Assembly: GCF_964019385.1 (NCBI RefSeq)
Contig: NC_088647.1
Location: forward strand, 4,348,798 to 4,412,797
DNA: 64,000 bases
Reading direction: 5' to 3'
Origin: Sycon ciliatum
Taxonomy: Eukaryota; Porifera; Calcarea; Leucosolenida; Sycettidae
In this document: positions 501 through 61,700 of the stretch, piece by piece
Numbering within the stretch: position 1 is the first letter of the stretch
Layout: every line of letters begins with the position of its first letter
Position numbers and translations under genes: made by a program
The notes under the pieces: generated by a model
What the model was told of the DNA's origin: nothing
Seen by the model: the letters and a program-made list of their open reading frames with translations, nothing else
Databases searched by the model: none

Positions 501-868
501 TTAGTTGGGGCGCTCGTAGCCAGTACAATCACACCATTCGTGTAAGCTGATCCTCTGGTCGGCATTAGCGTCGCAGTACTCCAGGAAGTTATCGGCACAG
601 GCACGTGGTCCTACGTTCTCGGAGAGGTTCACATCAAACCACTCCACCTCATGGAGCTCCAGGAAACGGTCGTACGGCGCAGTGTCGAGCTTGTCAAACG
701 CCCAGTAGACTAGCTCTTTGGCTGGCGTAGCCAGTCGTGGCTCTGCACTAGGCTCGGGGAATGGTGTGACACCCTCGGGACGCTGAATGTATGGGTCTTG
801 CTCACGCCATGAGCGGACGTGCGCTAAGAAATTGTTGTTGAAATAGGTTCGCTTTTCAGGAGTACAAA
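501..868 (-). CDS. Exon 57: EC28, terminal EF-hand module with stop codon
   Basis: Acceptor CTGCAG lies just above 868. The module starts with C-T-P-E-K-R and has the EF1-like F-D-K-L-D loop, then a paired EF-hand [12 protein letters not shown] with Gln at the usual Gly position. The usual WCWC motif is WCDC. In place of the usual splice donor the frame continues Y-E-R-P-N to TAA, so this is the 3' terminal coding exon. Confidence 0.85.
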
Positions 869-3800
869 CTGCAGGGCAGGCAAGAAAAGAATGGAACAAA
901 AAATTCATCAAACCACAATAGTCCAGAAAATAGTTAACGTTCACTTCCGTTCCTGAGGGAACTCACAATGGACGCAACCACCGGAAAAAAACCGAGCAAG
1001 ATGCAGCGCCTAATGGTGTGGTGAGGGGATCAGTCTCGACCTCACAACTACTGGCAACGGTGTGCTCAGATTGGCATGAGCATACAGCGGTACACAACAG
1101 GATGAAGCTGTGGATACCATTCACACTGCACGGGTTATACACCAAAGAGAAGAAAGACCATATGTGGGGAAATAAACACATGTTTGAAACGGTGCAAATT
1201 TTTGTTGGCACCAACTTCAATGCAACTCATCACTGGACTTCAAATCAATCCTGTAGAACGGGTAATTTTAGCGACGTAAAAACCCTAGCGAATTTAGCGA
1301 TTGACTCCTTTTCGCTAAAGTTTCAAGTCGCTAATCTGTTGAGACATTAGCAGTGCACTGGTGATCCGTGAGTAAAATCGCTGCAAATCGCTAAAATAAA
1401 AGGTCGCTAACCGGTTGACAATGGGAAAACGCTAAAATTAATAGTCGCTAAAATTACCCGTTCTACAGTAAACGGACTTGCAAACTACAAACTCGGAGCA
1501 CAGTCAGCGGCAATTTCTTACCTGGATCCAGTCCGGTGCACCAACACCATTCCATCAGGCTGATGTTGCCATTGTTGTTGTAGTCACAGCGACTCCAGTG
1601 CTCCAGTGCACACGCACGTGGTCCCACGCTGCGCTGCATGATGCTAAAGAACGCATCCGCCTCCGAGTGGGACAGCGTTCGGTCCATTGGCGATACGTCT
1701 AGCTCGTCAAACATCCAGTAGATGGCCACCTTGGCTGGTGTAGTCAACCGTGGTTCGGCCTGTGGGTCGGTTACTTGGTTGGGCTCCTCCGGCGATGGTT
1801 CGACATGTCCGGCTTCTTGGCGCATGTCAGATATGTACGTCACCAGGCGAGATTGGAACTGTGTCTCCTTCTCCGGCGTGCACTCTGCCACACAGTAAGG
1901 AATAACAGAGCTCAATCAGAAAACCACTCCATGAATTTCCGGGTCAACTAATACATGTAAAGAGGGGAGGGGGGGGGGTATTATCCAAAGTGGTGACAGC
2001 CTGCGAACCTGTTACCGCAGAGCCCCACCGAAAGCAGACAAATGTACAGCTTGGGGCTGGCAACACATACCTGATCTTCAATGGTCAGCTCCATGAATGG
2101 TGGCACCAACAGAATAGGGTCAGTAGATTTAGTTCATCACAAAGACTATGATGCTCCTTTGGAGAACGCAGAACCAACTACTGTCTACAATTCAACCCAA
2201 GAGGTACTGTGACGTATCTCAGTCACACCAATGATTGCAAACACAAGCATTTCCATGGTATCACGTGTTCGGAGGTTCTGTTGTAAAGTGTACTTGCTTT
2301 CTGAGGTGATGAACTTCAGTGTACACGTCAACCAAGCTAAAACGAAAATGGTTGATTCAATTAAAATCACGTCGGTGACAGCAAATTTAACGGTGCCAAT
2401 ACTGTTTCACCCCCTGTGGACTTGTGAGTGTAGTACAGAGAACACTAGTATGCAAGAATCCTGAGTAGCAGGGAAGAAGCACCAAATATTGCAACCTGTG
2501 GAAAACAATAGCATGATAAGATACTACACTGAACTCTACACGGCTGCCGCTAGCTTACGATTGTCGAGGCCGTTGCACCAGCACCATTCTGACAAACTGA
2601 TGTAGTCATCATCGTCATAATCACAATAGGTCCACTGACTTTCTGCACAGGCACGAGGATGAACGTTGCGCACTGTTTCATTCATGAATGCTCCCACTTC
2701 GGCACGACTTAGCTTCCTGTCCATTGGAGCTACATCCAGTTCATCAAACATCCAGTAGATGGTGATCTTGGCAGGCGTGTTCATACGAGGCTCGGCTGAT
2801 GGGTTACTGGGCTCTCCAGTACTGGGCGAAGGCTCAACATGGCCTGCCTCTGCTCGTTTCATTGACATGTACTCCAAGGTATTGTGTTGGTAGAAAATTC
2901 TCTTCCTTGCTGGGCAGGCTGCAGATTTAACAGGCAATAGTTGGTAGACAGAGGGGGCGGTGTTAGCATGCAGTGTACATGAACATATCCCCTGTACAAC
3001 AGTGACCAGATGTACCTTTGGGGCACAGTGTCCTTCAAGCAGCCACAATACCTTTTGATCTGTTGCTGCACATTATGTACCATAACACCTCCAGTACAAA
3101 GGTTGTGCAATGTTGACATGCTTAGCATTTTTAAAGGCACAGAAAAATGAAACCGAAACAAATTCAGCGCTGACTTACTCGGATCTAGGCCAGTGCACCA
3201 GCACCATTCGGATAGACTAATTGCGCCATCTTGGTTGTAGTCACAGCGATCCCAGTGCTTAACGGCACATGCACGCGGACCAACTTCACGATCTACTTCA
3301 GAAAAGAATGAACCTGCTTCGGCACGACTTAGCTTCCTGTCCGTTGGAGCTACATCCAGCTCATCAAACATCCAGTAGATTGTGATCTTGGCTGGTGTCT
3401 TGAGACGTGGTTCAGCTGTGGGGTCTGGAGTGCTGTCTGGTTCAGGTGATGGCTCAACGTGACCAGACTCTTGGCGCTTTGAAGACATGAATTGAAGGAG
3501 ATTGGCTTGGAAGTGGCTTTCCTTATCTGGGCTGCACTCTGCAGGTAGAACGGCAAGTAAAATACAGCACAGGATTTGAACAGCAACAAGTGGAGCATCA
3601 TTGAAAAAATATATGAATCTGCCGTTTCACCTACTAGTACTCTTTCTTTGCGCTGTTGCTATCACATCAGTACTGTCTAAATCCATTATATTCGGTCATG
3701 TTCTTTTTGCGTGTATTCCACCTGAGGAGAAGGCAATGAAGGTACTAATGGAGAAGTTTGGAGGTGTCAACTGTACGGAACCTGGAGCTTGTTGCTTTCC

Positions 3801-6800
3801 CGGGCGTTAATACATTAGACCGTAGAAAAACCCGCACAAAGCAGAATACTAAAAAGACAAGCCTGCATGCTTTTCAGCACTGTTCGATGGAAGAGCCATT
3901 CAAAGAGACATCACATGCTATTGCTGCCTTCCTGCTCGATCGTTCTTACCATTGTCAAGTCCAGAGCACCAGCACCATTCTGACAGAGAAATCATTCCAT
4001 CCTTGTTATAATCACAGTACTCCTGCAGTGTCTCTGCACATGCACGAGGATCCACTTCACGAACAACTTCACTCATGAATGATGATATCTCATTCTCACT
4101 CAGTTGTCTGTCCATAGGAGATACATCCAGTTCATCAAACTGCCAGTAGATGGCTACTTTGGCTGGTGTATTCAGACGGGGCTCAACTGCTGGATCGCGC
4201 TCACTATTATCTGATGTTGCCTCTGGTTCAGGAATTACATTTGCTTCCGATCTCTTCTTCTTGATGAACTGAAGCATCTTGTGTTGGAAGAACTGACGTT
4301 TGTCAGCTGGGCAAGCTGAAAACAAAAATGAGCACAGCAGGAGGAATATTGGTAGGTTTACGGGACTGAAAGTTAAGGAGCATTATATAGCCACAAAGCA
4401 AAACAACTTCAGAACACAAATCAATGTCAATAAAGGCTGCTGGAGTGCGCATCCAAAATGTGCTAGAGCTGTTAGCCAGTTAGTTGCAGAATGCCAGTAC
4501 TGTCGGTCATTGTCGTGCAATGTTATCGCATGAGCTGATTGTTTAGTAACTGGTGGTGTTAGTAGACATTATAGCATAACTTGTAGTGTCTTGGTCCTTT
4601 TTTCTTTACTATAAATGTCAATGCAAGAAACGAATCTCTGAAAACTTACTTGGATCAAGACCAGTACACCAGCACCATTCCGACAAACTGATAGAACCAT
4701 CATCATTATAATCACAATAGTTCCACTGACTTTCTGCACAGGCACGAGGATGAACATTGCGAACAGTATTGTTCATGAATACTCCAACTTCAGCACGGCT
4801 TAGCTTCCTGTCCATTGGAGCTACATCCAGCTCATCAAACATCCAGTAGATGGTTTGTTTGGCTGGTGTCTTGAGACGTGGTTCAGCTGTGGGATCTCTG
4901 GGTTCATCACTTTCTGGAAGAGGTTCAGTATGGCCAGCTTCAGTACGTCTTGCTGTCATGTAGTTCAGGAGATTATGTTGGTAGAATGTTCTCTTGTCAG
5001 CTGGGCAGGCTGGAGAACAAAGAGAGTAGAGAGTAGAGGCACATGTAGGTAAATGCATTGAGGAAGCGCTGCAGTGTATACTGGAAGATGAACACACAGC
5101 ATGTTACAAGAAATTGTTACTTTCTATCTGTGTACACCCAATCCTGTCTCATAGCTTTTGTGTGAAGCTCAGAGTCGGAAACCTCTCTCTGTAGGTGAAC
5201 CGCAAAATCCTGGAATTCCTGCTACAAGCGTGTCCTAATTTAGGCCAAGCTCCTGGCCAACAGGCAGGACAAATACAATGTCAACAGATGAAGTATGGAA
5301 AATGTTACAAAACCTACCTTCCATTTGTAAAGGCATGACAAACAAAGAGAAATGTAAAGTTCTGGATGTGATCAGTGAAACTCCAAAGGTTTAGAAGTAA
5401 GCTTGGTTCGTTTATACCAAGAATAGAGCGAAGAGTAATCAACATTAACTCATCTTGAAGTAGACTTACTAGGGTCTAGTCCAGTACACCAGCACCACTC
5501 TGATAGACTAATGGATCCATCATTGTTGTAATCACACCGACTCCAGTGATCCTGGGCACAAGCATGCGGACCAACTTCACGATCTACTTCAGAAAAGAAT
5601 GAACCTGCTTCAGCACGACTTAGCTTCCTGTCCATTGGAGCTACATCCAGCTCATCAAACATCCAGTAGATTGTGATCTTGGCTGGTGTCTTGAGACGTG
5701 GTTCAGCTGTGGGATCTGGATTGCTTTCTGGTTCAGGTGATGGTTCAACATGACCTGATTCTTGACGCTTCAAAGACATGAACTGAAGGAGGTTGGCTTG
5801 GAAGTGTCTCTCCTTTTCTGGGCTACATTCTGCAGATATGAACGGGGAATGACATGAAACAAAACATTGAGTAGAGGACATACAATGTATGCTATGCATT
5901 GTTTGTAGCAGCAATGTGGCAACAGGTGTCAGAATAAGCACGATTCTGACACGATTGCGGTTCAGAAGCCTCACGATGTAGGAAATTCAAAAACTGCAGG
6001 TAAGACTTCAGTCACTTTTGCATCAACGGTCGCACCAAAAGATGCTGGTGGCGCAAGGAGAAGCTTGTCATTTGGAGTGACAAGTGATCATATCAGAGTT
6101 GATGATAAACTTTTTTTCTAAAGCGTTGGGAGAAGTTTTGGAGTAGAAAGTGGTCGGACTAGACGTCACGGAGGGCCTGGCTTTCCGGGGCAGTTATGAG
6201 TTTGGCTGTATTTCAGCGGGGTGGAGTGGACATTGTCAAAATTGTATATTTCAAGAATATCTAAAAAGGATGATGTAGGGCATGGCTTCAGTGCTAGAGG
6301 AGAAATTCTACTATCTGCCGGTGTATAGCTCTTGTTAATGCTGGACGTATCTCACTGCTTTATCAGAGCTTGCCATCGGCTTTTTTCGACACGATTATTC
6401 GTGGCACTAGGGGATGCTGGTCCTCGTCTCCTGGCACGCTGGCATGGGTAAGTGGCGCTGCCTCAGGAACTCTTCTAAGGTGGTTAGGCCATGTTGGCTT
6501 GATGGAGTTTTGTTCGTAGCTTGTTTGTGTACGCTGCCCCATTGGCCACTTGCAGCCCCACAAATCATGTGATTTTTGGGCCACTTTGATGGGTATGCCA
6601 GTTTCAAGGCTTCCTTCTGAGGGCTTTGCATTGTCAATCCATATCCCCAAAGGAAACCTACCTGCAAATTGGAACGAAATCTGAGAGATCGACTTGCACA
6701 GAAATCGTTTGGTTTCCCAGATATGCTTTAAAATGCACCGTGGATAACATTCCCAGAAAGAGTGTACAAACACAGTGCCCTGTTTCTGCTCATCAGCAAT

Positions 6801-9800
6801 GACACTGATTCCCAGACAAGTCATAACCTAGTACTGCATTGACCATACTAGCAAACTGCTTATGGCACTAACTTACCATTGTCAAGTCCAGAGCACCAGC
6901 ACCATTCCGACAGAGAAATCATTCCATCTTTATTATGATCACAGTACTCCTGCAGTGTCTCTGCACATGCACGAGGATCCACTTCACGAACAACTTCACT
7001 CCTGAATGATGATATCTCATTCTCACTCAGTTGTCTGTCCATAGGGGCTACATCCAGTTCATCAAACTGCCAGTAGATGGCTACTTTGGCTGGTGTATTC
7101 AGACGGGGCTCAACTGCTGGATCACGCTCACTACTGTCTGATGTTGTCTCTGGTTCAGGAGTTACATTTGCTTGCGATCTCTTCTTCTTGATGAACTGAA
7201 GCATCTTGTGTTGGAAGAACTGACGCTTGTCAGCTGGGCACGCTGAAAAAAAAACACACATACAAAATGGAGAATATTAGAAGGGATATACGGTGAAACC
7301 TGTCTAAGACGACTGCTCAAGGGACCTTCACAATGTAGTCTCTGTGACCAGGTGATGTCCTTAGCCAGGGTCATTTGACTGGAAATAGCATCCCTTGGTC
7401 CTGGTTTCAGTGCTCCTTTAGGACAGGTGGTCGCCTTATCCGAGTGGTCGCCGTGACAGGTTTTGCTGTTAGTCAGTCAGTGTCAACGTGTAACCAGTTG
7501 CAACACCAGAAACATGCCAAATGCAAATCACAGGTAATGAACAAATCTCTGAAAACTTACTTGGATCAAGACCAGTACACCAGCACCATTCCGACAAACT
7601 GATAGAACCATCATCATTGTAATCACAATAGTTCCATTGACTTTCGGCACAGGCACGAGGATGAACATTGCGAACAGTATTGTTCATGAATACTCCAACT
7701 TCAGCACGGCTTAGCTTCCTGTCCATTGGAGCTACATCCAGTTCATCAAACATCCAGTAGATGGTTTGTTTGGCTGGTGTCTTGAGACGTGGTTCAGCTG
7801 TGGGATCTCTGGGTTCATCACTTTCTGGAAGAGGTTCAGTATGGCCAGCTTCAGTACGCTTCATTGTCATGTAGTTCAGGAGATTATGCTGGTAGAATGT
7901 TCTCTTGTTAGCTGGGCAGGCTGGAGAACATAGAGAGTAGAGAGTAGAGGCACATGTAGGTAAATGCATAGAGGAAGCTGTGCAGTGTATACTGGAAGGT
8001 GAACACATGGCATGCTACAGGAAATACTGACTTCCCTGTGATAGCTTATGTGTGAAGGCCAGAGTAGCCAGGGAAGTATCACCATACCCAGACAGAGCTC
8101 TTAGCCAACAGAAACAACAACAAATAACAACGTGAACAAACTTGGAAGACATAATAAAACATTTCATTTGTAATAGCATGGCAAGCGATATGCCGTGTAA
8201 AGTCTACTTGGTAAAGTGTGAACAGTTATAGAATCAGGACTAAAGCCATGCGTGATCCATCCCAAGAAATTCCAAGAATGAAGTCAATGGTAAACAACCT
8301 CTACTCATCTTGAAGTACTTCAGCAAACTCACTCGGATCTAGTCCAGTACACCAGCACCACTCTGACAGGCTAATGGATCCATCATTGTTGTAATCACAC
8401 CGACTCCAGTGATCCTGGGCACAAGCACGCGGACCAACTTCACGATCTACTTCAGAAAAGAATGAACCTGCTTCGGCACGACTTAGCTTCCTGTTCATTG
8501 GAGCTACATCCAGCTCATCAAACATCCAGTAGATTGTGATCTTGGCTGGTGTCTTGAGACGTGGTTCAGCTGTGGGATCTGGAGTGCTGTCTGGTTCAGG
8601 TGATGGCTCAACATGACCTGATTCTTGACGCTTCAAAGACATGAACTGAAGGAGGTTGGCTTGGAAGTGTCTCTCCTTTTCTGGGCTACATTCTGCAGAT
8701 ATGAACGGGGAATGACATGAAACAAAACATTGAGTAGAGGACATACAATGTATGCTATGCATTGTTTGTAGCAGCAATGTGGCGACGAATATCGGACTAA
8801 GGACACTTCTGAGACATGATTGCAGTTCAGAAACACCATTCGCTTCATGGTATGACCAGCCGCTGGCAAAAAAATGGTGGCGGAGTCAGATTTGGGATTG
8901 GTCGACCTCGGTAACTTGTCTACCTTTTTTAAGGTAACACGGTAGAATTATTCTTGAAGCAATTATTTGAAACTTTGAGTAGTAGATTTGTAATAGAATT
9001 TGCATTGTACAGCTATACAGGTAGAGCTATACAGGTAGAGCTAGAATTCGACTCTGGCTTCACGGCAGACACTGAAAGGCAGTGTTTGGGACATTGGGGC
9101 CAAACATGCACATGCTGAGCAAGGCCAATGGATCTGGGGTGGGAGGTACACATGACCCCGTGCTTCTCCCGGACTAGGCATCTTCATCAGTGGAGATCAA
9201 AAACATGGCCAGCAATCGAGGACATCTGAGAGTTGTAATTTTTGTACTCCTCCGAGGTGTGATTTTTGGCGTGCTGGGCCAAGCACAAGGAAGCCATCTG
9301 CAAAAAAACTGCAGAAAATGGTTGTTGTTTGATCCTTTGGTGTAATCTTTGTTTCTAGTCGAAGCTAGATGTGGGCTTTGCGCAGCAAAGCCTAGTTAGC
9401 CCATGCACACGCATGCTGGTGGTGGAGTGCTGCGAGTGCGTGTCATGTGACCACCTCGTGATTAAGCCGTGTGCGCCGTGTATGGCCTGGCAAAATTTTA
9501 TGGACAATCGTGGATCCGGCGTCTAATTATTTGGAGACGTGTTTTGCTGAGCTGTCTTTGTGCGAAGGAGCATTCTTTGCAGTTGCAGTTTCTGTGTCAA
9601 GTCAAAGTTTTTTCCCTCCCTCCCACCCCTTTTGAAGGGGCATTTTGTTTCTCCGGTTGGGGGGGGGGGGCAAACGGGCCTCCTATTATGTCTGTATGTT
9701 GTGACGCCTGATGCCAGGCAGTCGTGTGAGCCCTCGGTGGGCGATTGGCTGGCCTCGGTGGCCGTTTGTGTGCCCTCGGCGGGCAAGATGATATCGGCCC

Positions 9801-12800
9801 ACGGTGGGCAGTTTGCTTGCCTCGGTGGCAATTTGCGCACCCTCGATGGGTTGTCTGCTGGTTTAGCCCTCGACGGGCGGTTTGCTGGCCGCGGCGGCCA
9901 TTTGAGCGCCCTCGGTGGGCAGTATACTAGTTTACCCCTCGGCGGGCGGTTTGCTGGCCTCGGCGGCCATGTGTGCGCCCTCGGTGGGCAGTATGCTAGT
10001 TTAGCCCTCGGCGGGCGGTTTGCTGGCCTCGGCGGCCATTTGCGCGCCCTCGGTGGGCAGTAGGCTAGTTTAGCCATTTGGGCGCCCTCGGTGGGCAGTA
10101 TGCTAGTTTAGACCGCGGCGGGCCGCGGTGGCCATTTGGGCGTCCTTGGCGGGCGGATGCTAGTTTCAGGCATGCATCTTTACTCAATCAATTATTATCA
10201 AAGAGCATATTCTTGAATATTTGAATTGTCCAAAAGATATCATGGCAACCCCCAACCCAATGTGTCTATTGTATGTTTGTGCACGCCATAGAGAGCGGTA
10301 CGTTGTGCGGGTGTCTGCGTGTCAGAGCATGGGTACACCAGTGGCGTGTGCGTGCATGTGTGCGCTTGTGTCTGGCTGCATGAGTGCACGAGTGCCCAAG
10401 CTGGGCGTGCGGGTGCACTTGCGGTGCTTGCATGTTGACGGGTGCAGGGGTTAATTGCTGTTTGGAGCAGAACCGCTGAAATTGACTATTTTCTGCATGT
10501 ACTCATACATGTACTCATGTACTCAGGCATGCAGTCTCACTCGTATTTTAGCTCTTTTTCTGGAATGGATGCTGCTCTGCGCCCCTTGGTGAAAATTTCC
10601 TGCGCTCGTGGAGCAGCTGAAAAGGACCACTGGTATGTCTGGTTCCTGGTTTGAAAGTGGAGAGTCGACTTTTGTGCCTTGAAAAAGGAGTAGAGAGCGA
10701 TAAAGGTACGTCTGTGGCCAATTTTTGAGTGCTCCTCGTACATTTTTGATCGTGATAGAAATTCTCAGACCAAAGTCAGACCAAAGTCAGCGCGATGATG
10801 GCAGTACAGTTTTCTTGTGGATTTTTTAGTTGTTTCATCTCGTATCTATGTCAGTATCGTGATGGTGAAGTGGAGAGGGTGATTTTCTTCCTCTAGGCTT
10901 CGTTCGGCCGACTTTGCTTCGTCCTCGTCGAAAAGTGATCCTGAAAAAAAGGTCGATTCGCAAAATTATGTTGATTTTCAATGTACGTGATGACATGCGA
11001 TTGCTGGCTATGAGTATGCCAAGTTGCACACTACCGTGACTTGTTACACTGTATATATCATTCCTAGGAAGAGTGCACATACACAATACCCTGCAATTTA
11101 AATTAGTGGTGCGCACAGGTAATCGGGTACCCATGCTACCCGTGAGGACCTCGGGTAGACGGGTACAGAATAGTACCCAAAAACCCGAAGTCGCAGATGA
11201 CATCATATACAGTGCACGTGTACAAATTCATATAATACTCCGCATGTCTACCCAGTGTGTAAGAGAAGGGGTGCATTGTGGTGTTACCATGGAAACATTA
11301 CCCGATCGGGTATCCGTGCTACCCGTGGAAAACTACCCGAACCCGATACCCGAAGAAAAGGCTACCCGACTCAGCCCCAATTTAAAGACAAGCCAAAACC
11401 AAGTACTCCTGTGACCATACTACCAAACTGCTTATGGCACTCATAATCTTAGGCCACACGTTTTTATTTCTATGTTTCTCGTCACCCGCGCGCATACGAT
11501 TCAGGAGTCTGGAAGAAAAAAAGAAAACAAACTCTGCTGCACTGACTGTGCATGTGGGGACAAGCACACTCATGCACATGTGGCCTGTGCGACACATGAT
11601 GCGAGGTCGGCATTTGTTGTGCGCAATCTAGCTGCACATGCACAGATTGTGACAGAAGCTCCTATCACATACTAGTTGCTAACTATGGATGCTATTTTTC
11701 ATTGTGTATTGGTGGATTTTAGTGTGAACAAAGGTCTAATAAACTTTTTTTATTCTTTGGTCATTTTTTATTTTTTTCCACCTCTCGCATACGTTTTTAG
11801 ATTTTCAGGTGACGAGAAACATAGAAATAAAAACGTGTGGCCTTACCATTGTCAAGTCCAGAGCACCAGCACCATTCCGACAGAGAAATCATTCCATCGT
11901 CATTATAATCACAGTACTCCTGCAGTGTCTCTGCACATGCACGAGGATCCACTTCACGAACAACTTCACTCATGAATGATGACATCTCATTCTCACTCAG
12001 TTGTCTGTCCATAGGGGCTACATCCAGTTCATCAAACTGCCAGTAGATGGCTACTTTGGCTGGTGTATTCAGACGGGGCTCAACTGCTGGATCACGGTCA
12101 CTACTATCTGATGCTGTCTCTGGTTCAGGAGTTACATTTGCTTGCGATCTCTTCTTCTTGATGAACTGAAGCATTCTGTGTTGGAAGAACTGACGTTTGT
12201 CAGCTGGGCAAGCTGAAAACACAAATGCGCACAGCAGGACGGATATTGGTACGTTTACGGGACTGACAGCTTGGGAGTATTATATAGCCACAAAGCAAAA
12301 CAACTTCAGAACTCAAATCAATGGCAATGAAAGTCACAAATCTCTACTGAAAACTTACTTGGATCGAGACCAGTACACCAGCACCATTCTGACAAACTGA
12401 TAGAACCATCATCATTATAATCACAATAGTTCCACTGACTTTCTGCACAGGCACGAGGATGAACATTGCGCACTGTATTGTTCATGAATACTCCAACTTC
12501 AGCACGGCTTAGCTTCCTGTCCATTGGAGCTACATCCAGCTCATCAAACATCCAGTAGATGGTTTGTTTGGCTGGTGTCTTGAGACGTGGTTCAGCTGTG
12601 GGATCTCTGGGTTCATCACTTTCTGGAAGAGGTTCAGTATGGCCAGCTTCAGTACGCTTCATTGTCATGTAGTTCAGGAGATTATGCTGGTAGAATGTTC
12701 TCTTGTCAGCTGGGCAGGCTGGAGAACAAAGAGAGTAGAGAGTAGAGGCACATGTGGGTAATATGATGCACTGAGGATGCGCTGCAGTGTATACTGGAAC

Positions 12801-15800
12801 GCAATGTCAACAGATGAAGTATGGGAAGTGTTGCAAAACCTACCTCCCATTTGTAAAGGCATGGCAAACAAAATGACATGGAAAGTTTTGGATGTGATTA
12901 GTGAAGGTTCAGAACTGAACTTGCTTGGTTTATCCCGAGAATAGAGTGAAGAGTAATCAACATTAACTCATCTTGAAGTAGACTCACTTGGATCTAGTCC
13001 AGTACACCAGCACCACTCTGATAGACTAATGGATCCATCATTGTTGTAATCACACCGACTCCAGTGATCCTGGGCACAAGCACGCGGACCAACTTCACGA
13101 TCTACTTCAGAAAAGAATGAACCTGCTTCGGCACGACTTAGCTTCCTGTTCATTGGAGCTACATCCAGCTCATCAAACATCCAGTAGATTGTGATCTTGG
13201 CTGGTGTCTTGAGACGTGGTTCAGCTGTGGGATCTGGATTGCTTTCTAGTTCAGGTGATGGCTCAACATGACCTGATTCTTGACGCTTCAATGACATGAA
13301 CTGAAGGAGGTTGGCTTGGAAGTGTCTCTCCTTTTCTGGGCTGCATTCTGCAGATAAAAAAGGACATGAAACAGTGAAGCACACGAAGTAGAAGACATAC
13401 AATGTATACAATGCATTGTTTGTACACGTAGCAGCAATGTGGCAACGAATATTGCAATAAGGACACTTCTGAGACATGATTGCGGTTCAGAAACACCATC
13501 CGTTTCATGGTATGACCAGCCGCTAGAAAGAAACATGGTGGCTTGGGATTGGCCGACCTCAGTAACTTGTCTACCTTTTAAAAGGTAACACAGTAGAAAT
13601 ATTCCTGAAACAAATTGATACTTTGAGTAGTAGATGTGTAATAGAATTTGCACTGTACAGCTATACAGGTAGAGCTAGAACTCGACTCTGGCTTCACGGC
13701 AGGCACTGAAATGCGATGTTTGGGACATTTGGCCCAAACGTGCACATGCTGAGTAAGGTCAATGGATCTGGGGCGGGAGGGGGGGGGGGGGGGTACACAT
13801 GCCCCCGTGCCTCTCCCGGACTAGGCATCTTCATCAGTGGAGATCAAAAAAATTATGCCAAGTCGCACACTACCGTGACTTGTTACACTGTAGATATCAT
13901 TCCTAGGAAGAGAGTAACTTACACAATACCCTGCAATTTAGAGACAAGCCAAAATCAAGTACTGCCATGACCATACTACCAAACTGCTTATGGCACTCAT
14001 GATCTTACCATTGTCAAGTCCAGAGCACCAGCACCATTCCGACAGAGAAATCATTCCATCCTTATTATAATCACAGTATTCCTGCAGTGTCTCTGCACAT
14101 GCACGAGGATCCACTTCACGAACAACTTCACTCCTGAATGATGACATCTCATTCTCACTCAGCTGTCTGTCCATAGGAGATACATCCAGTTCATCAAACT
14201 GCCAGTAGATGGCTACTTTGGCTGGTGTATTCAGACGGGGCTCAACAGCGGGATCATGCTCACTATTATCTGATGTTGTCTCTGGTTCAGGAGTTACATT
14301 TGCTTCCGATCTCTTCTTCTTGATGAACTGAAGCATCTTGTGTTGGAAGAATTGACGCTTGTCAGCTGGGCAAGCTGAAAACACAAAAGTGCGCAACAGG
14401 AAACATATTGGTAAGTTTAAGGCACTGAAATTTGGAGGTATTATCTAGCTGCAAAAGCAAAACAACTTCCGAATACAAATCCATGGTAAATGAACAAATC
14501 TCTGAAAACTTACTTGGATCGAGACCAGTACACCAGCACCATTCCGACAAACTGATAGAACCATCATCGTTATAATCACAATAGTTCCACTGACTTTCTG
14601 CACAGGCTCGAGGATGAACATTGCGCACTGTATCGTTCATGAATACTCCAACTTCAGCACGGCTTAGCTTCCTGTCCATTGGAGCTACATCCAGCTCATC
14701 AAACATCCAGTAGATGGTTTGTTTGGCTGGTGTCTTGAGACGTGGTTCAGCTGTGGGATCTCTGGGTTCATCACTTTCTGGAAGAGGTTCAGTATGGCCA
14801 GCTTCAGTGCGTCTTGCTGTCATATATTCGAGAAGCTGGGTCTGGTATACGGTTCTTGATTCATCATTGCATACATCTGTATGTCACACAGGATGACAAA
14901 GTTGGAATGTGAGGTTTGGAATATGCAGCATACCGGTACATCTAGCAATGTGAACTAGGTGTTGCACTAGGAAGTTAGTAGAAAGATCCTAAAAAACTCT
15001 AGTGTGGAAGGAAACGCTATATAGACCAACCAGGTGATGCACTTCACAGCCATCAAATATGCTTCAATTTGAGGGTGCGTTCATCACATATTGCTATGGT
15101 ATTAGCAGAATGGAACCAGGCCTCTATCAGCCTGGACATTTCCTAATTGACTTCCGCCAACACCATCACCGGCATGCACTGGTGAAAACAAGGAGGGCTT
15201 ACCAGTTTCTGGCATTGTGTATCCACACTGTCCTGAGAGCGGCCAGTATTGACACATTCCAGTGCCTGGCTTGGTGGCGTTGGGGCACTGGCCTCCCGGT
15301 GGCATTGGACACGGAGGTGGCGGGTGTGTCATGAACCAAGCAGTATACTCGTCATGCGTCTTGCAGTACCAGTTGTTGGCGCAGCACCAGCCGCGCCATT
15401 CCTCGCACACCGGGTCGGATGATTGCGAGTTGGTGTCGGAGACATCGTTAGAGCTGGAGACGGAGTCGACCACGACATCATCTGTGGAGCCAGCAAACCA
15501 AAAAACAATAACAGCACACAACCGAAGTGATCGTTTGGTAGCTATGCATGTAGCACAGGCCGGTCCATAAGAGTTGCATGAACACAATACCAGTAGCGTG
15601 GGAGCAAAGTTACAATACTTCTCTAGCAAGGAAGTTGGCTTTGCCATCCCTTCATGGTAGAAGGTATTGCCATGCACTGGGGCAAGAACATATATGGGTC
15701 TTTTTGAATCCATGCCCTTTACCCATCCGGCCTATTATTAACGGAGTGAGACATTTGTTCAAATATTACCATTCAGTTCAGGCAACGAATATGAGCAGAT

Positions 15801-45313: not shown

Positions 45314-45367
<54 letters not shown>

Positions 45368-48300: not shown

Positions 48301-51300
48301 TAATGAACATTACGTTACCTGGGCAGTCATGGGATTGCACACACGGTGCACCGTTCTCACTCGATTGCCTTACGAAACCCTCGGGGCAGAAGCAGCCACG
48401 AGAGCAGATCTTGACGCACGGCCTGGGACCGGGTTGTGTGCAAGTTGACGGGCATGCTGTGCCACATTCATTATACACCTCCCCGGATGGACATACTGCT
48501 TCGGTTGCCACAGCTGATGACAAGAAATACATCCATAAATAAAAGTATACCTACATGAGCACACTAGTGAATCACTGAAAGAAGCACTGCAGAAATCCTG
48601 ATGAAGTTCTGATCGGTTTCCGGTGAAGTTGTCTTGTACAATTCAATACGTGCTACACTGAATCCCTTACCAGTCTCTGGGGCAGGCGGTTGAGTTGCAG
48701 ATTGACGGGCTGCACAGCAGGATATAGACACCAGCACAGTGGAACGGTGATTGTTGATAGAAGAAAAAAAGATTACTTGGCACAATCCAAAACCGGGGCT
48801 AAACCCGATAAAAACAGATATTCCTCCAGGACCATTTTAATCCAAGAGTCACTGTGACTAAACCCCCGGACAGCTAGCTGCTTCAACCTGGTTTGGTCTC
48901 GTCAGCGAACTCAGAATGACTGGCCCAACTGATCGCAATGAAGCCTAGTCCAAGAATAACATGCCAATCGATACACGTGGGAATTCAGTCCATACAGAAC
49001 TGCACCTTCGTTGTATGAATATTGGTAATTTCACCATCGGATTTTTGCCTAGCATCCATGCACATGAAAGTGAAGAAGCGTTTAACTATGGCAGCAACCG
49101 CTCTTACCTTCACATTCCGCATGGCTGATACACTGGGCACCGTTAGCACTGGATTCAAGGACAAATCCTGACTGACAGAAACATCCCATAACACACTGCA
49201 TGGTGCACATCCTAGGGCCTGAAACACCGCATGTTGCTGGACATGCCGTGCCACACTCCTGGTAGACTTCATTCTGACTGCACTGAGGCGTGTCCACCTG
49301 GGTATTTGCTGTCAAGGAAGCAAACAGCAACAAACAAAGGAAATTGCTTACCTAGCGACTCGAAGAAAAAATTTCGAACCATCGTATCGATTTAGAATCC
49401 TGCAGGACGCTTCACTCTGCTCCATAAGTAGAAAATGGTTGGGATCAATACTGGCCAACACTCACTGCAGTTTACTAGTTCATTTCAGGAAAAAAATGTT
49501 TCTGTCATGAAATAACCATCATAAGGAATGTAGTGGGTACGGGTGGGACTGGGTTAAAATGAGCAGCACTGCAAGGAGATAGTTCACACATTACGATTAT
49601 TTCATGACCAAAATGTTGAAATATTTTTTCAACTGCAATGATTGAATCTGGGCCGACCTTTGTCGCTCACAACCTTTTCTCATCATAATGATTATGAGCA
49701 AAACAACACAAGCTGGAGCAGATCACAATGTTAGACACACACATCAGTGCTGCTTGTTAAATCAGCTGTTGCACGACCATGACTGCCCAGGAAATAGCAG
49801 CAAATCTACCCCATGAAAAGCGTAGAAAGCTGGAACACTAAAACATTGATCAATGAACAATACGTTACCTGGGCAGTCATGGGATTGCACACACGGTGCG
49901 CCGTTCTCACTCGATTGCCTTACGAAACCCTCGGGGCAGAAGCAGCCACGAGAGCAGATCTTGGCACACGGCCTGGGACCGGGTTGCGTGCAAGTTGACG
50001 GGCATGCTGTGCCACATTCATTGTACACCTCGCCGGATGGACATACTGCTTCGGTCGCCACAGCTGATGACGAAAATCACACCCATAAATACAAATGTAT
50101 ACATTATATGAGCACACTAGTGCATCACGTAAAGAAGCACAGAGGAAATCCTGATACAGTTCTGATCAAATTCCTACACAAGAAAGATGATCACATTCCT
50201 ATGAAGGTCTCTGGTACAATTAGCAAGATGTGCTACATTGAATCCTTACCGGTCTCTGGGGCAGGCGGTTGAGTTGCAGATTGACGGGCTACACAGCAGG
50301 ACAAAGACACCAGCACAACACAGCACAGTGGAACGGTTATTGTTGATAGAAGAAAAAAATTATAGGCACACTCCACAACTAAAGTATTGCTCAATGAAAT
50401 CCGATCAAGCAAGTGAATGCAAGCCCTAGACCTGCGGACACTGGAATGGTGTACTGGTGCGGGGTGCAACTTGAGCGATGCGACCAGATTTCATTGAGCA
50501 GCACTGTAGTACTTTTAACCCCTACAAAGTCACTCCTCGAAAACCTTTTTTTTTAATCCAACGACTCGTCTGTCAATCAATACAACCATATATTTATGAT
50601 AATTCTTTTCACACAGAACTGCACTGTGGTTGCACTAGTATCGGGAATTTTCACTACAGCATCTACTACAACCACCACTCTCACCTTCACATTCAGCATG
50701 GCTGATACACTGGGCACCGTCAGCACTGAATTCAAGTACAAATCCTGACTGACAGAAACATCCCATAACACACTGCATGGTGCACATCATCGGAGCTGAA
50801 ACACCGCATGTTGCTGGACATGCTGTGCCACACTCCTGGTAGACTTTATTCTGACTGCATTGAGGCGTGTCCACGTGTGTGCTTGCTGCATAGAAAGATT
50901 GTACAAAGGCAGAGAAGGATGAGCGACAACTTGGCAGATTCAAAATCTGGCGTAGAATGAGAATCAGATTCAGGGACAAGGATGTTTCACTTTTCACGCT
51001 TTAGTGCACACACACCCTTGCACAAACGTACTCACACGCATGCACAAACACACCCATATATATATACTACCGTAAAAGTCCGTAAATAAGTACGTATTTA
51101 CTTTCGAATTTAGTGGCAACACCCGTACTAACTTTCGGGCGGGTACTGACTTCGGGCACGAACTAACTTTCGGACCTGACTTGTGTGTAGTGGAGAAGTC
51201 ATTTTCATGTCGATGTACATGCTACGTGCTGCATGTGCGCACCGTACCGGTACTTATTTCGGGCAGTATGTTTATCGGGCTTGACTTGACTTCAACAGAC

Positions 51301-52703
51301 AGAGCCAAAAGAATGAAGGGTGTATTTCTTTCGGTCAGGTACTTATTTACGGACTTTTACGGCATATTTATTATTTACATGGATACACACACACATGCGC
51401 GCGTTGCCAGAATTGCTTTGATTGAATAGGGTCTCGATCATTCCCTCCCTCCCCGTTCATGCCCAATAAATGTGGTTTGCAAAAATGCCAGGCCCGGAGC
51501 CAGCTCATAAATGGTGGCACGGCCCCGGGTCGGTTACAGCCCCGGTCATTCCCCAATGCCTAATTTCAGGGTCATGGGAGGATGCATCAGTGCTGCATCA
51601 TATCTGATTGTTTCAGATCATTCCGCTAGCAACGAATATACAGCTAGCACAGTAGTCCTCACTGGACAAGAACGACAGTTTAGGAGGAAGAGACTCTCGC
51701 AAGGATAGCTTGCTGGTGCTTTCACATAATTAAGGATACTCATCATAGACGAGACATCACATGAAAGCTGGAATTGGTAAAGTCTGGTGCGGCCATGGCC
51801 GCACCGGCTGTACCAGTGGCGCCGGCACTGACTGGTCCTTGGATTAGAAGACCACCAAAAGTTTATATGAACACGTCGCTCTGGCAGCAAATCAAGAAGC
51901 AAAGCCTTAGCATTTATGACCCTGAGTCATAAATGCGAAAGCTTTCCTTGCTGATTATAAAATACATGTGTTGTTGGCATTTTAACCTTTGTGTTACCTC
52001 ACCAATTGTACAGACAGTGTTGCATTTTCATTGCATGCATGTGCTTGCCTACAACAACACTTACAGTCAAAAAGATCCAAGTCGATGTGATCCTCAAGAT
52101 GAACTGCTGGCGGTGTCGCTTGCCGTGCTGATTCGAAAAGACAGGAACAAGCACATTATTTTGTCAAGAAGAAGACAAAGGGCGTAATATCTTCACACAA
52201 GTAGGCACACAGGGTTCAGTTATCTGTGAACAAACACCCCATGCAAATAACGCAAACATGTTCAATGTATGCAGTTTCTTGTCTTAAAAAAAAACAAGCA
52301 TCAGAAATCTGACATGTGAAATGTTTCCCTCATGGACACTCGATTGCTCTCACCTTCACATTCAGCATGGCTGATACACTGGGCACCGTTAGCACTGGAT
52401 TCAAGTACAAATCCTGACTGACAGAAACATCCCATAACACACTGCATGGTGCACATCATCGGAGCTGAAACACCGCACGTTGCTGGACATGCTGTGCCAC
52501 ACTCCTGGTAGACTTTATTCTGACTGCACTGAGGTGTGTCCACCCCGGTATTCGCTGTCAAGGAAAACACGGAAACATGCACACATGGTTTACGTTCCAG
52601 TGAAGTACTCAAAGTAGATGACAACACTTTTTAGTTGCCTGATGATCGTGACTACGTGAAACTCGGAGTTGCAGCACAGCTCCCCCCCCCCCCTTTCCCT
52701 CCC

Positions 52704-52780
<77 letters not shown>

Positions 52781-52783
52781 ATC

Positions 52784-52831
<48 letters not shown>

Positions 52832-55800
52832 GTGCTGTGTAACACTTTTTAAATTATACTGGCGGAAGGAGCAAGCTAGAAGGCATGTGTCATGTAATAT
52901 AATGCATGATGACGATGATACAATTTGCTCGTATCAAAGCTCTTTGGTACACCTGATGATGATATCGAGGCTCTAAGGTACCAAAAGAAGCTAGCAAGCA
53001 GCATTATACGACGTACGATACATGCTCACCTTCTGCAGGCAGTTCAAGCCCAAAGTTTCCAACCGGTGCAATCTCTGGTGCTGGAGTGTCCACTTGTTGA
53101 GCTAAGGCGGAATGACACCAAGAAGCAAAAGAAAATGCTTACTATAAACATCACGGTGATGAAGTCAGCTCAGGTAAATTACATGATATCCACTGAGAGT
53201 AAACCAAGTGTGCGCAGCTGGCTACCATGCTAGGTGCTGCTCCATGACTGTAATCTGCAAACTAAATGATTATAAACTTAGAAGTTCCTCGTTGGAACAA
53301 CCAACTTCATAAATGATTATATTTCTACTTATTCCAACAAAGCAAAGGACTAGCATGGACTTCACACAAGAGTCCCGTGGGACAAGAGAAGCCACCATAG
53401 TGTAGCAGGGCGGATAAATGCCGGATCCCTTACCTTGGCATTCCAAAGCGCTAATGCAGCGTGCACCATCGGTAGCAGATTCGCGCACAAAGCCGTGCTG
53501 GCAGAAGCAGCCGACCACGCACTGCAGTGTGCAGATCAGTGGTGCAGCAACGCCACAAGCCGTCGGACATGCCGTGCCACACTCGGTGAAGACCTCGTTC
53601 AGTCCACAGGCAGCAGAGCTTGCCTGGTTGCCGTCTACAGAAACAAGTTCAGAGCAGCACATCACAGCATTCATACTGAGAGATCAGGCACATGCTGGGA
53701 CATACAAAATTGATAGTGGTGCATAACTAGTGCCTATCTACCCTATCCCAGAACCATCTATCCTTTCCCATCCATGTAAGAGCTGAAATGCTGGCCACCG
53801 TGATAGGCCAAAAACTACACTAGCCAGCGCAGTCCTCAAGGACAAGAAACAGAAAGACGCTCCTTTGAAGATGGCGGTGGAGGGGGGGGGGGGGGGCTGG
53901 CTTGGCAGAGGTGTGCGCTAGTGTCACTGACAAACATCAGTCGTGTGGCACGCTCAAGCGGGGTTCAACTCAGGCTGCACAGGGGACGGTTGGACATTTT
54001 CGAGCTCCGTAGATTTTCGTGCGATTTCTCAGCCCAGCCGGTCTGGAGGTACAGTGAAACCTGTCAAGGCGACCACTCGGATAAGACGGCCACCTGTCCC
54101 ACAAGACCACTGGAACCAGAATCAAGGGATGCTCTTTCCAGTCAAATGACCCTGGATGAGGAGACCACCTGGCAACAAAGACCACGTTTCGAAAGTCCCT
54201 TGAGCGGTCGTCTCGCGTCTTAGACAGGTTTCCCTGTAGTTACAGGATAGGAGAGAAGAGTGGTGAGTAGTAAATACTGTCTAGGTAGGAGCAATTGGCA
54301 GACATAGGTAGCCATGCTGCCCAAAACTGCCACCCACAGCCTCCTGACGGCATTGGAAATAAAACTTTTGAGCTCCGTCCCTGAAATAGAATCGTCCGTC
54401 TTTGAAATTGCCAAGATGCTGCCAGCACTCGTGTCGGAGTCTGCCAACCGGGAGGACCGTCTCCAAAGCTGGATTGACGAACTGGTGATACAGATAACAG
54501 GACTGAATGAGGAGGTTGTCGCCATGGAGACCGCCATAGCAACGGCAACCGTGTTACCTTTCCTCCGGCTAAACCGCCCCAGCGTACGACGAGGCGCAAG
54601 GGATCTTGTAGCCGTACCCGTACGCGCAAAGGCCAGGTCACCACATGCACTGGTGCAGCAACAGGAGAACACCGTAGCACTTTCCAACGCGTACACGTGT
54701 GTGATACTGACAGTGATCGTGAGATCTCGAGCGACGAAGATGACAGTTTTCAGACTGTTGGGCGCCCCCCAGTCAAGCCCCAGAAAAACATCGTTCGACC
54801 CAATCGCTGATGAATCGTGGAAACTAGTATCCAAAGAACACCACCAAACAAGGAAGGCAGTTGTGTATGTGGGAAATCTGAACTCTGATTGCACAGAGGA
54901 GTGTGTAACAGAGTTCACTCAGCAGAGATCTGTGGCTGTGGCCAAACCTGTCAAGGTCCAAGTTGTGTATGTGGGAAATCTGAACTCTGATTGCACAGAG
55001 GAGTGTGTTACAGAGTTCACTCAGCAGAGATCTGTGGCTGTGGCCAAATCTGTCAAGGTCCATGAGTGCAGCATACACACCACAGAAGACGGGGAAAGTG
55101 TCCGCCCGATTGACGCTCCACGCCACTGGCTTAGAAACAGTCACTGCTGCGAACGTCTGGCCCCGACCGCTTTACGCTTGACCCAGCACACTTGCCTTCT
55201 CCTTCAACTCAGATACTACTTGAAGCCGCACGTTCCTCGACAGCCAGTATGGTTTCCGCAGCAACAGAGGAACTGCTGATGTTCTGACTGCTCTACAAAA
55301 TGAATGGGTCCAGATCGTCGCCAACGGTGGAGCTGTACAGGTGGTTGCCGTCGGCGTTGCCGGAGCTTCCGACCGAGTGTCACACATCAGAGTCCTCCAC
55401 AAAGCAGAGCAAGCTGGCCTCACTGGCACACTACGCACCTGGCTCCAGCATTACCTCTCTAGCCGACGAGAGCTGAAGGTCTTAGTCCGAGGCCAAACTT
55501 CCTGTGCCCAACCAATTTTAAAAAGCTGGGGTGCCACAAGGAAGCATCCTTGGCCCAACTTTGTTCCTTCTTTATGTCAGTGACCTTGACCAATGTTTAG
55601 CCCCGGGAACCAGAATCCTTTGCCGACGACACCACCCTGTACAGCCTCCTGAGCCCCGGAACCCCTGCTGACAACACTGCCTCCTTGCAAGCGTCACTGT
55701 CCCTCCTGAACGAATGGGGGGGGGGGGGGGGGGGGAAGAGCGCTGGAGGGTGAAGTTTTAGCCAGCTAAATCCCAGAAAATGCTCTGCACAAGACCCCCT

Positions 55801-56355
55801 GCTCTTTTCCGGCAAGAATTATCGTTGAAGAGTATGCCTGCTGCTTTCAAGGACTGGCTGTGGGCCACAGACGGCAACTAAGATCAACTAAGAACCATAA
55901 AACAGTACAAACGCCTTACACCTTAATGTGATTTTCTACTTTTATGCTGTTATTTTAGTACTACATTCCTCCCCCCCCCCCCCTCCTCAACCCGCCCCCA
56001 CCCCTTCCTGTTGCGCGCATCCAGTGCTGACTCCGAGACCTCTGGTCGGACTAGCTGGACTAGCTGGACTTGCCTCACCTGCACCTTGCTTTTGCATGTC
56101 CAACCCCTTTTGTCTGTTTGTCCTAGTCTTCTGGCCCACTTTACTGTTACCCCACATCATCAGTAGGATCGTGTGCTTTAAACTTTAAAAGAAAAATGAA
56201 AAAAACAGTGACCGCTGCATAGTACCCGCTTGGCAGCTAATGGTGCTATAGCTCCGTTCCTCACACGTGTATGTGCGAACAAACACATGCATACACGCAC
56301 GCACATACACACATTTCTATACCCAGTCCTGGCTAGCCGTACACTTCCTTTTATT

Positions 56356-56399
<44 letters not shown>

Positions 56400-57152
56400 A
56401 TTCTTTCTTCCTCTCGTTTCCATACACTCCACCACCGCACGTAGCAGAGCTCACATGAGACAGAAGCGGAAAGGTTGGCATTGCTGCCCAGTATGCAGGC
56501 TGCATCCACGCCTAACAACACCTACACACCATGATACCTCGTGCAAACATCGTTCTGCTTCATCAGATTGCAGGAACCGTGAAGTGGGCTATGTTTCAGG
56601 ATTGACATGTACCATTGTTTGCGATTTATGCGAGGGATGCCAAATCGTGAACTTTGAACTTTGCAAACTTCCAGCAGGATTATTAATCTGGTCTGTGTTC
56701 AAACTTTAATCACAGTCATACCACTGAAAACTGCTCTAGCTTTCTAAATAACCGGAGTTTCTTGTCGCAAAATAATCCGCCTTTGATACAGACAGAAACA
56801 GTCTTAGGAAATATAGTCACCTTAAGTACTGCCTGCACGTGGTATGACAGTTTGAGTTACCAAGACTTACTTTGTGCCGGGGGTTCAACCGCCAAGTCCT
56901 GTGTGTCAACGCCAGTGTGGACTCCAGCAGGGGGTTCTGAGGCAGATCAAACCGCATGACCAAGAGTGTGTGTATTCAAAGGCCAATGAGTGTCACGAAA
57001 TACTCAAACCAACTTAAAGGTAGCACAAGCCTGTGTTACACGACGGGTGGAGGAACGGCAGGAGACAGGCAGTCAGGTAGACAGACAGACATGCAGACAG
57101 ACAGACACTAGGAGTTCGCTGGTGACCACAAGAATGGCAAACAGGCATGTGT

Positions 57153-57193
<41 letters not shown>

Positions 57194-58979
57194 TGAGTGA
57201 GAGAGAGAAGGTGAAAGACAGCAGACAGCAGCATGGTTGCTTCAGGAAAGGCCAAAAACTGGCTACACAAGCCTACCCAGACACATGTGTTCCATGACAC
57301 ACGGTGAGTTGACGACAAGCGTATCACGGATGTAGCCAGGGTCACAGAAGCATCCGCTCACACACACGTCAGGGCACACCTGGTCAGCAGTGTTGCTGTT
57401 GCCACATGTTGCCTCACATGCAGAGCCACAATCAGAGTAGGTTGCATGGGCGCCACAGTCTGCCACACATAACACAAGCATACCCACAAACCAACTCTGA
57501 ATTGGTCCCAACACAATTCAAAAACTTATCCAGATTGTTTACCTCCCGGCAACAGGTTTATCCATCATCCATAGAATCAACTTTCAATCGAGCCATGCAC
57601 TGTTGCTATCTGTCCAGTTCCACGTTACTGGACGTTTCTCTTCAGATATGGAGAGCTGGCACTATGTAAATCTCAAATATAAGTGCTTTACACAGAGGCG
57701 CACCTTTTCTCCTAAGAAATGTCAGGAACGCGCCCTCCAGCTACCACATGAACATTCACTTTCGTATGTACAAATACGAACTGGCATGTGACGTTTCCTA
57801 CCAAGAGGGGCGCAGCTCATACACCGGCGCGACTTCGACCCAGGAGATACGGCAACCCACAGTAGTGCTGCCACATAGTTCCAACACAACAGGGATAATG
57901 CCAGAGCCATCCATGGTACAAGCCTCACCACCAACTAAGCGCTCCTACCTGATCGTTCTGTTTGCGTTTGACCCTCGGCAACAAAGGTCTGCTCTTCAGA
58001 AGCCAATGGAGCTGTGGGTAAACGAAGACAGCATGAGCAAAAGCAATAACTTTGTTCAATTTGCACCACCATAACAGAAAAATAAGGGCTACCAGTTGAG
58101 TACAGTATCAACCAGCAGGGTAGTTTATGATAGAACTGAGCCCAATTATTCGTACACTGATGAAATACTAGTTTCGGTGAAGTATCTTCTAACCGACCAG
58201 CCATGGTATCGCGCTGGATTCAGGACCTGGTGTGCAGGAACATAGAGGATGCATATTATTCCAAACATTGGGCTGATGCTGAAAGGATGGACTCGGTCCA
58301 GCAAGTAAGAACACACTTTTGATAAGTTCGATCAAGTAAGACGAGAAGTACATGACAAAACAGCAACCAACACCAACAACCAGACTAACCCATAGGCTCA
58401 GACACAAAGTTGCTTTCAGGTCACACATGCACACAGCACAAAAGACTTTGGAGAATGTCATCACTCAAAACAATGTCATTCCAGAGCAGACATCAATAAT
58501 ATCGCTGTCTCCTGCATGGTCTATCACGGTGGATCTTCCCAGCCTTACTTCAGCCACCCAGTGGACAAAATCAATACCGGAAACCTGACCGGCGTATGTG
58601 TGACATAAGGCACAACGGACAGATGCACCCCTCCAAAAGGGATGTATCCAAGCACATTGCCCACATGACTGAGCTGGGTAGAAGTAGAACATCGGGGAGA
58701 AAATGGACCACCTACCCTACCCGAGGAAAATCAACGTATGCCACTGAATAGCACCAGCCATGCCATGCCAACTCACCTGTGCACGTTTCTTTGCGAACGC
58801 ATCCAGCTCCATTCTCGCCGGACGCACGCACAAAGCCTTCGGTACAGAAGCAGCCCATCACACACATAGCGGGGCAAATGCGCGGACCCGAGTTCATGTT
58901 GTCGCACGTAGCGGGACACGCCGTGCCGCACTCATGGTACACCTCGTTCGCAGCACAAGCTGTGAGTCAAAGAACACAT

Positions 58980-59035
<56 letters not shown>

Positions 59036-61700: not shown

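Follow-up and report, generated by a model that had tools for sequence, protein, structure and literature searches.

A candidate single gene for a secreted SPARC-superfamily protein with 28 predicted EC domains in the sponge Sycon ciliatum

Comparison with described SPARC-family proteins

The named proteins of the SPARC family are matricellular modulators in which an EC domain, that is, a pair of EF-hands, is combined with a follistatin-like (FS) domain; SMOC and FSTL1, for example, are secreted proteins with the FS-EC pair and one EC each, and SMOC also contains thyroglobulin domains. In this pair, the follistatin-like domain precedes the EC, and in testican, the pair is joined to other domains, including thyroglobulin (excerpts of PMC7763218). 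Here we describe a locus of Sycon ciliatum contained in a stretch of 64,000 nucleotides of the 39-Mb contig NC_088647.1 (positions 4,348,798 to 4,412,797; hereinafter, the window) that probably represents one gene for a secreted, calcium-loaded matrix protein, a SPARC-superfamily mosaic of about 4,760 residues. The complement of 28 ECs in one protein is extreme.

The predicted protein resembles SPARC (BM-40, osteonectin) and hevin (SPARCL1) in the fold of the EC, the proline inserted in the first EF-hand (EF1), the canonical second EF-hand (EF2) and the adjacency of Kazal and EC domains. It differs from them in having 28 ECs rather than one, in that, of the follistatin domain, the FOLN (EGF-like) half is not seen in the Sycon gene, and in a fifth cysteine of the ECs at the position where SPARC and hevin have alanine or glycine (EWAGC/EWGHC). 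As with the testicans, SMOC and FSTL1, all of which carry the FS-EC pair, the product is predicted to be secreted; unlike testican, with its single EC and thyroglobulin domains, it contains TIL modules and orphan cysteine-rich modules denoted U. Among the matches listed in open-licence literature (titles and starts of abstracts), there is no description of this gene or of any multi-EC SPARC protein and, as far as these matches show, the 28-EC architecture, the TIL array and the growth by triplets are new. With the exception of U, the module types themselves are known, and the databases already contain an unannotated relative with nine ECs, from the sponge Corticium candelabrum. The view taken in the preliminary description of this locus, that SPARC-family proteins normally carry one EC, holds for the usual case, but in view of the Corticium protein, multiple ECs are not unique to Sycon.

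Gene model and domain composition

The gene model extends along the minus strand of the window from an ATG at position 61700 to an in-frame TAA ending at position 501 and includes 55 exons, all on this strand, with 14,289 spliced bases encoding 4,762 residues; all 54 introns have GT-AG boundaries, and the single frame contains no internal stops. Of the earlier 57-exon model, the limits and the continuous frame were borne out, 55 exons were recovered, and the remaining two were not found again; frame-breaking junctions, which had been considered contrary to a single gene, are missing from the model. Independent derivation yielded the same module count as before, namely, a signal peptide, 10 TIL modules, one Kazal domain, 28 SPARC-type ECs and 6 U modules, to which 8 short linkers are added. 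From 5' to 3', the signal peptide is followed by the TIL modules with linkers, the Kazal domain, EC1-EC4, three U modules, three EC triplets, the other three U modules, the remaining four EC triplets and, finally, EC26-EC28. A 22-base exon (59523-59502) shifts the frame from phase 0, set by the donor of exon 1, to phase 1. Almost all module exons are of phase 1/1, so that the clean frame is weak evidence of one gene given that several genes would show the same pattern. The predicted protein is acidic, with an isoelectric point (pI) of 4.74 and a net charge of -279.

A Pfam search identifies SPARC_Ca_bdg in all 27 single-exon ECs (E <= 0.001), TIL in the two of the ten TIL exons that were scanned (E ~1e-12), and Kazal_2 in the respective window exon (E = 3e-11, 43.7 bits); all three families proposed for a hidden Markov model check in the preliminary description are thus matched on window exons. 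The remaining EC, EC1, is split between two exons that meet at a phase-0 junction; it was recognized by similarity. Both calcium-loop motifs are intact in 28 of the 28 ECs, with EF1 containing the inserted proline, a feature of ECs (excerpts of PMC7763218), and EF2 being canonical. For one EC, the structure predicted by AlphaFold matches the fold seen in crystal structures of the SPARC EC domain. The fifth cysteine, found in 27 of the 28 ECs, is probably unpaired. The acidic hinges of the earlier account do exist as acidic stretches; however, they are located inside each EC, where they separate the EF-hand pair from the first helix, rather than in the spaces between modules. Of the FS-EC pair, the Kazal half of the follistatin-like domain is present and is spliced directly to EC1, and a FOLN-type half is not found by Pfam. 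The loop IPMEHC/VPMEHC of SPARC and hevin, which holds collagen-contact residues, aligns to VHPRAC in the A-type ECs.

In a genome-wide search with an EC profile (538 Mb), 26 matches above the cut-off were obtained among 31 scored candidates, all inside the window, although an EC interrupted by introns could escape this search; a second search yielded at least 29 matches, also all in the window (29 candidates scored). Chance open frames can be rejected given the Pfam E-values and the ratio of nonsynonymous to synonymous substitutions (dN/dS; see below).

A single gene or several neighboring genes

The 5' portion of the model corresponds to a database protein, EukProt scpid49483/scgid27402 (hereinafter P0001), that bears the source name “Chymotrypsin-elastase inhibitor ixodidin” and an identifier of the style given for Sycon ciliatum (excerpts of PMC6526912). 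P0001 is a product of the same gene that is named only as an inhibitor: 943 of 950 residues match when the model is taken without three of its TIL exons and one linker. It spans positions 61700 to 41034 and contains the signal peptide, the 22-base exon, six further linkers (one of which is present twice in the window), seven TIL stretches detected by Pfam, the Kazal domain and EC1-EC3, joined as predicted. Kazal is missing from the Pfam listing for P0001, in contrast to the score of 43.7 bits obtained for this stretch when it is read from the window. Because P0001 breaks off in the middle of the EC3 exon (41034), without a stop codon, the reading frame continues beyond this point. These findings support one gene across 61700-41034, so that the earlier proposal of one long gene of the SPARC superfamily, encoding a signal peptide and an array of 28 ECs, is backed in its 5' part by a separate database record of the Sycon type. 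The close agreement with P0001 also makes S. ciliatum, or a very close relative, the very likely source of the window. For this calcareous sponge, there is a Tree of Life genome assembly, described by chromosome and employed in PMC12419799; a COX1 search gave no match.

The principal alternative, which appears unlikely, is that the locus consists of two or more neighboring genes, a 5' TIL-Kazal-EC gene (61.7 to ~39 kb) followed by at least one gene for the EC array. It is compatible with the termination of P0001 inside EC3, with the fact that phase 1/1 exons can be joined in any order, so that the continuity may be only apparent, and with the large gaps at 36385-32364 and 29685-19183, the second of which contains a retroelement. 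However, comparably large introns, 2.1 and 3.2 kb in length, are present within the stretch crossed by P0001, which itself ends in mid-exon with no stop codon. Furthermore, a donor was scored for every EC exon except the last, the only one that runs into a stop. A scan for signal-peptide-like first exons returned 14 start codons which, besides 61700, are off-frame readings of module exons or a start in a CA repeat, leaving no other such exon with a usable donor in the array; the scan depends on hydropathy, cleavage-site and donor thresholds, so that a weak first exon could be missed, and ten block-shuffled controls gave 0-4.

Several observations weigh against one gene encoding a secreted, calcium-loaded matrix protein. 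The 3' 40 kb, with 25 of the 28 ECs, are joined to the gene by phase, by selection and by the lack of further initial or terminal exons, as P0001 stops at 41034, and P0001 itself is of uncertain origin, either a transcript or a genome prediction, with the 22-base exon arguing for RNA. P0001 contains 7 TIL modules compared with 10 in the window, which could be due to splicing, to the collapse of copies in an earlier assembly or to individuals differing in copy number. EC4 (40426-39968) is degenerate, scoring 19.9 bits versus the cut-off of 22, and the acceptor scores of several U exons are poor. Within the 500 bases from the stop to the window edge, there is no AATAAA or ATTAAA; an AATAAA is located 518 bases past the stop codon, just outside the window. 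The predicted 4,762-residue protein contains no RGD and, past the signal peptide, a simple hydropathy scan reveals no clear membrane anchor, so that its location in the matrix is presumptive. Finally, testican-2 has two EF-hand motifs only one of which binds calcium (excerpts of PMC7763218), so that motifs alone do not prove binding.

Exon organization

Exon 1 (61623-61700), with the ATG, the signal peptide and a phase-0 donor, is identical to residues 1-26 of P0001, where the signal peptide is followed by the same residues, SRTENNE, that are encoded in the 22-base linker exon (59502-59523). Next come TIL 1 (58777-58959), a linker exon PLASEEQTF... (57949-58011), TIL 2 (57277-57459; Pfam TIL, E = 9e-13), a linker exon EPPAGVHTG... 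(56871-56936), TIL 3 (53434-53634) and another linker exon (53030-53101), all of which are present in P0001. These are followed by TIL 4 (52354-52554; Pfam TIL, E = 1.7e-12), TIL 5 (50685-50885), the first copy of the duplicated linker exon (50250-50288), TIL 6 (49869-50063), TIL 7 (49108-49308), the second copy of the linker (48671-48709), TIL 8 (48319-48513), TIL 9 (47674-47862; 100% identical to P0001), a linker exon (47044-47124), TIL 10 (46390-46563) and the linker exon NKKATVDGS (45267-45296). A repeated block in the 46390-58959 region combines a VDTPQC-type TIL, an RQSAT linker and a VATEAV-type TIL.

The Kazal exon (44602-44748; also with matches to agrin and follistatin) immediately precedes EC1, which consists of a first exon for EF-hand 1 with a phase-0 donor (44086-44330; present in P0001) and a second exon for EF-hand 2 (42845-42965; 100% identical to P0001). 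EC2 (41986-42351) and EC3 (40856-41227; shared with P0001 up to its end) both match SPARC_Ca_bdg; the divergent EC4 (39968-40426) has no fifth cysteine, and its acceptor is less sure. The first three U modules (38778-39626) correspond to 39626-39393, 39314-39087 and 39008-38778, the acceptors of the last two scoring poorly. The EC triplets, each with A, C and B types in this order, are triplet 1 (36385-37972; A 37972-37604, C 37467-37102, B 36744-36385), triplet 2 (29685-32364; A 32364-32005, C 31712-31347, B 30044-29685) and triplet 3 (17490-19183; A 19183-18824, C 18596-18231, B 17849-17490). After the other three U modules (15203-16418; 16418-16182, 16021-15770 and 15481-15203, with poor acceptor scores for the first two), there follow triplet 4 (12988-14876; A 14876-14514, C 14374-14009, B 13347-12988), triplet 5 (8333-12718; A 12718-12359, C 12212-11847, B 8692-8333), triplet 6 (5470-7920; A 7920-7561, C 7242-6877, B 5829-5470) and triplet 7 (3179-5009; A 5009-4650, C 4315-3950, B 3538-3179). 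The array is completed by EC26, a diverged A type (2559-2918), EC27 (1522-1884; Pfam, E = 3.4e-14) and the terminal exon with EC28, ending in TAA (501-868). All these exons are on the minus strand.

Relatives in other sponges

A search started with a 1,045-residue query identifies P0001 and the Corticium protein among 7,105 candidates, and one with a 561-residue query only P0001 among 4,771 candidates (both at E 0.001), whereas with a 2,530-residue query (region 640-1600), not one of the 5,905 candidates reaches E <= 0.001; all these searches were restricted by length and shared words, so that they could overlook relatives that are distant or of very different length. The Corticium relative is the uncharacterized 1,269-residue protein LOC134179790 from C. 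candelabrum (class Homoscleromorpha), with a signal-like N-terminus, a Kazal domain, two ECs, a Kunitz domain and seven ECs. It shares with the Sycon protein the Kazal domain directly before EC1, the EC array, the acidic insert after the first helix and the fifth cysteine, in an EWC motif, but differs in the number of ECs (nine), the Kunitz domain between EC2 and EC3, and the absence of TIL and U modules. In a tree of the 28 Sycon and 9 Corticium ECs, which is unrooted and includes long branches, the two species are split by one branch (support 88/86; 90% of bootstraps). Because the Corticium ECs fall outside the Sycon ECs in this tree, the two arrays probably grew independently.

Predicted function

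The predicted protein can be described as a Kazal-EC core with ten TIL modules ahead of it and 27 further ECs behind it, mostly in seven tandem A-C-B triplets. Each EC would fold like the EC of SPARC and hold two calcium ions, so that up to 56 ions would stiffen a long, acidic, cysteine-rich chain that would be deposited in the extracellular matrix. The fifth cysteine, probably unpaired in the 27 ECs that possess it, could cross-link modules or chains, and the TIL and Kazal modules may be protease inhibitors or rigid spacers. Sea water contains about 10 mM calcium. For testican ECs, the reported calcium affinities are 17-68 micromolar (excerpts of PMC7763218). By analogy, with affinities so far below the ambient concentration, the Sycon sites would always be loaded, and calcium would stiffen the chain rather than signal, which favors a structural matrix polymer. 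Judging from the sequence, a calcium-loaded matrix polymer would be the likeliest role. The motifs and composition fit the calcium-loaded acidic matrix protein envisaged in the preliminary description; calcium binding and the matrix role are what we infer from them.

A role as a matrix protein of the calcite spicules, with the calcium sites serving mineral deposition, is quite improbable. The presumed host does form such spicules, and an acidic protein with a signal peptide and numerous calcium-site motifs is compatible with this possibility. However, the nearest relative comes from Homoscleromorpha, a class not known to form calcite spicules, and sites with testican-like affinities would be saturated in sea water, again favoring a structural role. 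Moreover, the study of spicule proteins in Sycon (PMC12419799) names, in its main text, calcarins, CAP, and fibronectin III, subtilisin-like and EGF-like proteins, whereas Kazal, EF-hand, osteonectin, calcium-binding and SPARC have zero mentions in that main text, the 35 identifications being in the supplement. The earlier suggestion of a biomineral function is therefore not supported.

Sponge aggregation factors contain Calx-beta and aggregation-factor-specific domains; no Pfam domain of the aggregation-factor type was detected in P0001 (E <= 0.01), the 27 ECs (E <= 0.001) or the 6 U modules (E <= 1). Tentatively, multi-EC SPARC relatives might constitute an undescribed sponge family common to Calcarea and Homoscleromorpha, in which each module of a long, calcium-loaded chain would contribute one spare cysteine, and the cross-linked chains would form a matrix or adhesion polymer that is covalent and stiffened by calcium; in Sycon, duplication of triplets together with exon-wise homogenization would have enlarged one gene to 28 modules (56 EF-hands). 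Such a polymer could be the sponges' own calcium-dependent matrix polymer, acting beside or instead of aggregation factors and collagen-binding SPARC. A 28-EC protein would be an extreme of extracellular EF-hand amplification and would show that the EC can be used as a polymer repeat, beyond the matricellular adaptor. The gene also provides a specific candidate to explain why the cohesion of sponge tissue depends on calcium.

Evolution of the EC array

The EC array consists of seven A-C-B triplets (21 ECs), with four other ECs before and three after them. The dN/dS between paralogous ECs is 0.161 for the A type (28 pairs, EC26 included), 0.195 for the C type (21 pairs) and 0.161 for the B type (21 pairs), indicating that each repeated type is under purifying selection. 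The triplet copies show dS of 0.04-0.40 (often ~0.1) and dN of 0-0.07, and the products of three A-type ECs do not differ in any residue, the dS among these copies being 0.13-0.17. Over the aligned columns alone, the A-C introns of the 21 triplet pairs are 48-89% identical, with a mean of 68%, compared with 94-96% for the exons; intron lengths are so variable that the low identities are close to unalignable. Given this low dS next to diverged introns, the exons appear to be homogenized relative to the introns or constrained at synonymous sites. The similarities between introns are mosaic, e.g., 0.89 for triplets 1 and 6 and 0.87 for triplets 5 and 7. Together with the likeness of the exons, this mosaic suggests exon-limited gene conversion. 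The locus can be regarded as a natural experiment in exon-wise homogenization in which introns drift and exons stay alike.

It is hardly credible that most of the array stems from an assembly artefact or represents a tandem repeat in decay: the smaller number of TIL copies in P0001 and the three A-type ECs with identical residues are in favor of this reading, but the dN of the triplets is low relative to their dS, artefactual copies would match in the introns as well, and intact EF-hand motifs in all 28 open frames are unexpected for decaying copies. The divergence of the introns leads to rejection of the artefact.

Intronic elements and flanking genes

The intron between EC triplets 2 and 3 contains a BEL/Pao-type long terminal repeat (LTR) retroelement (19831-27778, minus, the strand of the gene) with two 625-base LTRs that are 100% identical, which implies recent insertion. 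Spread of the array by a retroelement can be rejected given that this element lies wholly within one intron. A TIL intron includes, on the plus strand (54308-55583), open frames and a 102-base tandem duplication; by eye, these frames resemble a decayed reverse-transcriptase element, and Pfam yields only below-cut-off matches, none to reverse transcriptase. Intronic minisatellites are located at 30221-30621 (23-base unit), 16479-16807 (30-base unit) and 9729-10075 (69-base unit).

A six-frame motif scan of four 10-kb flanking stretches (20 kb per side) gave a single, chance-like match, GCFC in stretch L012, just behind a stop. In the left neighbor L009, an exon on the minus strand (749-1183) resembles an Aurora-type kinase by eye, without a Pfam match. 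On the plus strand of L009, there is an RRM exon (5711-5953; E = 2.8e-5), which looks like PABPN1, so that another gene begins within a few kilobases on the left side.
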